Assembly (NCBI GenBank): GCA_024304985.1
Contig: JAMWZC010000001.1
Coordinates: 620,001 to 684,000 of the forward strand
Direction: 5' to 3'
Length of the DNA stretch: 64,000 bases
DNA from: Paracoccaceae bacterium
Lineage (GTDB): Bacteria > Pseudomonadota > Alphaproteobacteria > Rhodobacterales > Rhodobacteraceae
Both the position numbers and the translations under genes were made by a program. Every line of letters starts with the position of its first letter. The stretch's first letter is position 1. Positions 25,007 to 51,281 of the stretch are shown one piece after another. Below the pieces are notes generated by a model, which had not been told where the DNA came from, did no database searches, and saw nothing but the letters and a program-made list of their open reading frames with translations.

Positions 25007-25360
<354 letters not shown>

Positions 25361-25447: not shown

Positions 25448-25476
25448 TTGCGGCATTGGTCGGATGTTCCTATATT
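25448..25476 (+). promoter_or_regulatory. Sigma-70-like promoter of the orphan OB-fold gene
   Basis: TTGCGG (25448-25453) and TATATT (25471-25476) are separated by 17 bases. The -10 box ends 6 bases before ATG 25483, so transcription would begin at or near the start codon, giving a leaderless mRNA. The LexA box overlaps the -10 box. Confidence 0.6.
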
Positions 25477-25480
25477 GTTC
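25466..25480 (+). promoter_or_regulatory. LexA box (GTTC-N7-GTTC)
   Basis: GTTC, seven bases, GTTC is the SOS box of alphaproteobacteria such as Rhodobacter and Caulobacter. The AT-rich spacer contains the -10 hexamer, so bound LexA would block RNA polymerase. It ends two bases before the start codon of the OB-fold gene. Confidence 0.8.
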
Positions 25481-25482
25481 TC

Positions 25483-25863
25483 ATGCCTGCCAGACCCGCT
25501 TCCCCTGCCTCTCCGCCTGCCCCCGCTTGCACCCCTGCGGCGCATCTGGGCTATGTCAGCACGGGGCACCGCGTGACCGTGGCGGGGCTGGTGATCCTGC
25601 GCCAGCGGCCCGGCACCGCCAAGGGCGTGATCTTCCTGACGCTGGAGGATGAGACGGGCGTGATCAATGTGATCGTCTGGCGCAAGTTCTATGAGCAGTT
25701 CCGCCGCGCCATCATCGCGGGCCGCCTGTTGCGCGTGACGGGCCGGATGCAGCATGAGGGAGGCGTGTCGCATCTGATCGCGGAACGGATCGAGGATATC
25801 TCGGACATGCTGGACCTGCTGTTGCAGGACGAGGCCGCGCTGATCCCGCCGCCCCGCCGCTAA
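25483..25863 (+). CDS. Stand-alone OB-fold protein like the C-terminus of DnaE2
   Basis: This is 126 residues from ATG 25483. After a Pro/Ala-rich start (about 1-25) comes one OB-fold that closely resembles the C-terminal nucleic-acid-binding domain of the error-prone polymerase DnaE2. The matching segments are HRVTVAGLVILRQRPGTAKG, FLTLEDETGVINVIVWRK and HLIAERIEDISDML. The polymerase, PHP and thumb domains are absent, and no imuA or imuB is adjacent. The LexA box overlapping its promoter means it is probably induced by DNA damage, like the imuA-imuB-dnaE2 cassette of relatives. It could be a remnant of such a cassette or a small damage-response DNA-binding protein. It lacks the usual DnaE2 tail. 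Confidence 0.8.
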   Translation: MPARPASPASPPAPACTPAAHLGYVSTGHRVTVAGLVILRQRPGTAKGVIFLTLEDETGVINVIVWRKFYEQFRRAIIAGRLLRVTGRMQHEGGVSHLIAERIEDISDMLDLLLQDEAALIPPPRR

Positions 25864-51146: not shown

Positions 51147-51281
51147 ACCAGCCTCCGTTCCGGGCTTGACCAAGGGTCATTTCGCCCGCCACGGCGCGAA
51201 TTCTTCCGTTTTGGAAGTTGCAATAGGCCATTTTTTCCGCCCTATTGTGACGCTAACATCACGATGAACCCGCCCTGAACA

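Follow-up and report, generated by a model that had tools for sequence, protein, structure and literature searches.

The SOS response begins with the activation of RecA by DNA damage; cleavage of LexA follows, and the genes of the response are derepressed. The closest described relative of the system reported here is the ImuA-ImuB-DnaE2 mutasome, encoded by a LexA-regulated cassette and involving the same proteins and the same kind of control. The "split" versions of this cassette consist, to our knowledge, of separate whole genes. Both contiguous and split (dispersed) imuA-imuB-dnaE2 cassettes are already described in the accessible part of PMC3919608, and the excerpt available from PMC10883770 places imuB and dnaE2 of Phaeobacter inhibens in one operon. 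In contrast to these cassettes, the polymerase polypeptide itself is divided in the case described here, and the OB domain forms a fourth gene.

Several DnaE2 sequences without an OB domain are reported in PMC3919608, and the polymerase bodies that we describe look like them; however, the accessible part of that paper neither mentions an OB domain encoded elsewhere nor names the organisms concerned. A standalone mutasome domain has been reported in the case of ImuB-C (PMC12926913, sections available to us). This is a domain of ImuB found in Actinobacteria, whereas our case concerns the OB domain of DnaE2, of which those sections make no mention. The cyanobacterial intein-split DnaE is an example of a C-family polymerase encoded on two genes (PMC3919608, same excerpt). 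Unlike in that system, no intein-like stretch is apparent at the ends of the split DnaE2, and its parts would have to act unjoined. We found no description of a separately encoded DnaE2 OB domain in the literature searched, and none is given in the accessible portions of PMC3919608, PMC12926913, PMC6473078, PMC10883770 and PMC9426580.

The OB gene and its SOS-type promoter

The window, i.e., the whole 64-kb stretch of DNA that was analyzed, contains the following features:

25007..25330, minus strand: divergent gene for what we take, from its sequence, to be a 2Fe-2S ferredoxin; the conserved neighbor that marks the insertion place, outside the mutasome
25448..25453, plus strand: -35-like element TTGCGG, read directly; candidate promoter element
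25466..25480, plus strand: LexA-type (SOS) box GTTCCTATATTGTTC, exact GTTC-N7-GTTC, two bases before the ATG
25471..25476, plus strand: -10-like element TATATT within the box spacer, read directly; candidate promoter element
25483..25863, plus strand: gene for the putative OB-fold subunit of a split DnaE2, 126 aa (NF004225, PF01336, structure model)

The original prediction described a GTTC-N7-GTTC motif overlapping a TTGCGG-N17-TATATT promoter, two bases before the start of a 126-residue protein, and direct reading agrees. The two promoter-like elements are separated by 17 bases, with the -10-like element inside the box, and the frame opens with an ATG at 25483 and is closed by a stop codon whose last base is 25863. 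The protein was also correctly seen as an OB-fold resembling the C-terminus of DnaE2. Among NCBI families it matches NF004225 (PRK05672, error-prone DNA polymerase) best (E 9.4e-32), with the match confined to the C-terminal end of DnaE2 (positions 941-1037 of 1047); the runner-up is DNA polymerase III alpha (E 1.8e-08). The OB-fold family PF01336 is matched at E 1.4e-13 and passes its gathering cut-off (51 bits versus 27). In the AlphaFold2 model (mean pLDDT 85.9) strands and helices follow each other in OB order. A sequence comparison with solved structures gave no close match (best E 0.02), and a PDB fold search with the protein returned OB-folds of many kinds and no useful lead.

Standalone relatives of this gene (orphans hereafter) keep the reading frame in all 35 aligned sequences, at 59-84% identity. 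Most orphans beyond the window protein's own close group also conserve a W-P-R/K-P-P stretch before the OB-fold, which has been lost from the window protein and from L102-L106; this N-terminal stretch is possibly a docking segment.

A single box proves little by itself. The exact pattern occurs twice in the window, compared with 1.2 expected, and genome-wide its 104 matches versus 114 in the reversed control reveal no enrichment. The other match in the window (51266-51280, minus strand) is at chance level. However, the box at the OB gene is more than chance because it is conserved: an exact box lies upstream of all 48 orphans examined (one per 260-nt upstream stretch, the window's genome counted), and the rest of the same 243 kb of orphan loci contains just 3. 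The original prediction was right about the SOS-type box. The surrounding putative promoter is conserved as well. Positions -18 to -16 relative to the box, in the -35-like element, are T in 46, T or G in 48, and G in 41 of the 48 loci, and the T/A-rich spacer with its -10-like element is kept across the 48 loci. Exact boxes also precede lexA and recA in the window's genome, which suggests that LexA binds the box at the OB gene, and the Dinoroseobacter consensus motifs GTTC and GAAC, given in the accessible part of PMC6473078, agree with these boxes.

The gap between box and ATG is exactly 2 nt in 34 of the 48 orphans, and in nine the first in-frame ATG is at least 16 bases from the box. A leaderless message, which had been deduced for the window gene from the placement of the -10 element and is sound as a prediction, is therefore expected for most orphans but not for all.

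The polymerase body, ImuA and ImuB

The polymerase body, ImuA and ImuB had been described as missing. This is true for the window but not for the genome, where they are found on contigs 6, 7 and 10, respectively, and a search of the genome for imuA, imuB and dnaE2 settled the reading. In the 3.76-Mb genome NF004225 is matched at three places, on contig 6, on contig 13 and in the window. The match on contig 6 is a DnaE2 body, covering family positions 4-938 with 1216.6 bits, over the cut-off, in an open frame of 972 aa with C-terminal HPLALLRPLLTP followed by a short tail; the polymerase on contig 13 (564.7 bits) is taken as DnaE1. The body and the window protein are complementary: positions 4-938 and 941-1037 of the same family are encoded by separate genes. 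Residues D388, D390, D392, K537 and D539 (L064 numbering), which are presumably the catalytic residues of DnaE2, are invariant in a 28-sequence alignment that includes this body. By profile score and alignment, the genome therefore contains a DnaE2-type polymerase with an intact catalytic core. ImuB is encoded on contig 10 (G000:C10:71427-73061) and an ImuA-like protein on contig 7 (G000:C7:138419-138964, E 1.6e-20), so that the four parts of the mutasome are spread over four contigs. The canonical trait of OB domain and polymerase in one chain is absent, with the body ending at position 938 and the OB domain on its own gene, and the OB protein therefore belongs to a variant of the mutasome and not to its canonical form.

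These genes bear on an explanation put forward in the original prediction, that a cassette collapsed around its promoter and left the promoter and a fragment as a relic. The tail domain alone does remain at the window locus, and many relatives have a full cassette (L065-L067). However, the body, imuB and imuA are open elsewhere in the genome, and at all 48 orphan loci the OB gene occupies a place beside the ferredoxin rather than a former cassette site. A relic is contradicted by the partner genes and by the conserved frame (the 59-84% identity of the aligned orphans) and promoter, and we regard it as very improbable. In the fused-type locus L067, a gene at 509-1234 lies between an exact box and imuA-imuB-dnaE2; we take its product to resemble SOS-response-associated peptidases.

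A different possibility is that the split is real but the OB protein serves another polymerase too or instead, such as DnaE1 or DinB. The genome encodes a DnaE1 and also a second Y-family gene; however, the OB domain is missing from the five examined genomes that lack DnaE2, ImuA and ImuB, which leaves this explanation a small chance.

SOS-type boxes, which are putative LexA operators, are present at all four mutasome genes. An exact box is present at 20 of 20 imuA loci and at 28 of 30 imuB loci, and all 30 of the latter have a box with at most one mismatch. Among 31 body loci (L222-L251 and L001), four have the exact GAAC-N7-GAAC and 24 have GAAC-N7-GAAT; in one a box overlaps the start, and two have no box. 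Boxes with at most one mismatch occur by chance in 573 of 6200 random windows of the same size (9%). The GAAC-N7-GAAT just upstream of the body ATG is a conserved one-base departure from the consensus. The box of the OB gene is oriented opposite to those of the body, imuA and imuB.

Distribution and origin of the split

At E 1e-8 there are matches to the window protein in 255 of 295 family genomes. Among the 150 places listed, the frame is shorter than 500 aa at 126 (in 126 genomes) and exceeds 1000 aa at 24 (in 23 genomes). The list is sorted by E-value, an order that favors orphans, and at least one of the short frames, that of G178, belongs to a fused gene. We queried 62 chosen genomes with the C-terminal 330 aa of a fused DnaE2. 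They comprise 37 with an orphan, one with both forms (G035), 17 of fused type, and 7 from the 40 that had given no OB match. In each of the 37 orphan genomes the body piece (query position 1 to 180-213) and the OB piece lie at different places. A full-span DnaE2 is present in all 17 fused-type genomes; two of these carry two fused genes each, and partial pieces are present in G178 as well. The seven without an OB match divide into two with the body only and five with no match. ImuB and ImuA co-occur in the same 57 of the 62 genomes and are both absent from the same five, which also lack DnaE2. The two genomes with the body only (G044, locus L250, and G064, locus L251) have ImuA and ImuB, and the OB gene was not found in them even at E up to 1. 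They are drafts of 100 and 490 contigs, and either gene loss or an assembly gap may account for the lack of a match.

A comparison of the best 80 of 251 relatives yields 18 orphans, which come from Seohaeicola, Puniceibacterium, Roseovarius, Shimia, Cognatishimia and Rhodobacteraceae, Paracoccaceae or alphaproteobacterial bins; the remaining 62 belong to fused genes, are truncated by a contig end or lie in shortened frames. In some split genomes, e.g., G097, G184 and G031, imuB is near the body. G035 (L075, L213, L247, L286) carries a fused imuA-imuB-dnaE2 set on contig 4 and a split pair on contig 1.

In a search for a second split outside the family, 176 of 385 class genomes matched, with about 150 places listed. 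None of the four short frames that we followed from the matches listed represents a second independent split: L295 is a decayed gene, L296 has a change of frame, and L297 and L298 are cut by contig ends. About eight further short frames were seen outside the family, and the coordinates of most of these put them close to the start of a contig. L295 (G591, a single-contig region in another family) is a decayed dnaE2 whose C-terminal half is matched only in parts.

These cases raise the question of whether the split itself is an artefact of assembly or of a frameshift in an ordinary fused dnaE2. Broken dnaE2 genes do exist, with adjacent pieces in different frames in L295 and L296, and the class sample includes short frames close to contig ends. 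However, the body and OB gene are separate in 37 of 37 orphan genomes, and the OB gene has its own conserved promoter and neighbor. An artefact is also contradicted by the single-contig assemblies G045, G141 and G269, in which the two halves lie at least 0.4 Mb apart on the same contig, and we give this explanation practically no credence.

The split proteins share a common origin. A quick tree of 62 bodies groups the 31 split sequences in one clade (SH-aLRT 100), with the fused sequence of G276 as sister (99). In a tree of 79 OB domains, which comprises 131 columns and leaves many inner forks unsettled, the 48 split sequences also form one clade (93/82; recovered in 93% of bootstrap trees), again with G276 as sister (85/45). 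Because both trees give a single split clade with the same fused sister, we conclude that there was one fission, in the Rhodobacteraceae. In G276 the fused dnaE2, imuA and imuB are already on different contigs, and a box lies 42 nt before dnaE2; this suggests that the cassette was probably dispersed before the gene was divided. In a structure model of the fused G276 protein (pLDDT 75.8), the break falls between the helix 932-942 and the first OB strand at 964.

A ferredoxin relative is found on the divergent side of the OB gene at the same 48 loci that keep the box, and in nine of nine fused-only genomes the approximately 480 bases beside the ferredoxin contain no exact box (for G254, one of the two ferredoxin copies was considered). 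G035, which carries a split pair, has an exact box beside the ferredoxin. These patterns suggest a single insertion of the OB gene beside the ferredoxin. Among the neighbors of the body, compared over short flanks, an RppH-like gene was found at 2 of 31 loci and two other neighbors at none.

The constraint on the OB domain is unchanged. Of the columns of 31 fused OB domains, 24 reach a conservation of at least 95%, and each of these shows the same residue in at least 95% of 48 split domains. In 24 genomes the raw distances, with species history left in, between OB sequences correlate with those of the body (0.46) and ImuB (0.52), and not with those of the adjoining ferredoxin (-0.15); on the same raw basis body and ImuB give 0.86 and body and ferredoxin 0.23.

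The tails are different. SRDF is the end of 64 of 66 fused proteins and is absent from 31 split bodies and 48 split OB proteins, so the split proteins did change in some respect. Split bodies end 13-80 aa after or around an HPxALLR motif, and the OB proteins begin shortly before the OB domain. An HPR motif follows the OB domain in 45 of 66 fused proteins, lies near the end of 4 of 31 split bodies, and is found in none of the split OB proteins. Its position near the end of some bodies hints that an internal loss may have removed the OB domain and left the tail on the body, perhaps once a copy already existed at another site. Five of the 31 split bodies (L224, L228, L236, L238 and L246) end with TRANPD or a near form (TRGNPD, TRANTD), possibly a new tail motif in place of SRDF.

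The role of the separate OB protein

These bacteria seem to build an error-prone polymerase from two separately made parts, and we consider it likely that the OB domain is a separate subunit of an SOS-induced mutasome, acting in trans. One gene would give rise to the polymerase body and the other, beside the ferredoxin and under its own SOS-type promoter, to the C-terminal OB domain. LexA would repress all four genes, and damage would induce the body, the OB protein, imuA and imuB together. ImuB and ImuA would place the DnaE2 body; the accessible sections of PMC12926913 model ImuB as contacting the PHP and helix-hairpin-helix regions of DnaE2, and both regions are retained by the split body. 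The OB protein would dock on the body at the site of the fused domain, where it probably holds the template strand. Counting against a subunit in trans are the two genomes in which no OB gene was detected, the usual one-base departure in the body box and its absence from 2 of 31 bodies, the lack of genome-wide enrichment of the exact box, and the loss of the SRDF tail.

An alternative explanation is that the OB protein has left the mutasome as an independent, SOS-induced ssDNA-binding protein, and that the truncated body works without it. If this were the case, then an SSB-like role would leave much the same genomic pattern. The protein models as a free OB domain, G044 and G064 retain a body without a detectable OB gene, and the missing SRDF tail also fits. 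However, the 24 conserved columns are all kept, a body is present in all 38 split genomes that carry the OB gene (the 37 and G035), and the SSB family PF00436 reaches only 16.2 bits on the window protein, below its gathering cut-off of 26. We favor a function in trans with DnaE2 over a new independent one because the OB domain is the part that the body lacks and because its conserved columns persist; we regard the independent protein as unlikely. Of the suggestion in the original prediction that a small damage-induced DNA-binding protein evolved from the DnaE2 tail, the origin from the tail therefore stands, whereas the new role appears less likely.

Within the reading of a subunit in trans, a speculative extension, which we hold to be rather improbable, is that the split acts as a separate switch: the polymerase could work on DNA only once the OB protein is provided by full derepression. 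The body, with its imperfect operator GAAC-N7-GAAT (24 of 31 loci), may be made early or leakily, whereas the operator of the OB gene is perfect, reversed and merged with a putative leaderless promoter. If this were true, then a translesion polymerase would be gated by a separately induced DNA-binding subunit.

The split DnaE2 represents a C-family polymerase that was divided once and has been kept divided across many genera. It offers a possible explanation for DnaE2 sequences reported without an OB domain, as in this family the domain is encoded elsewhere, and it illustrates that a likely subunit of SOS mutagenesis can carry just a general OB-fold label from family models. The division also makes the role of the OB domain in DnaE2 testable through one small protein that can be added or removed.
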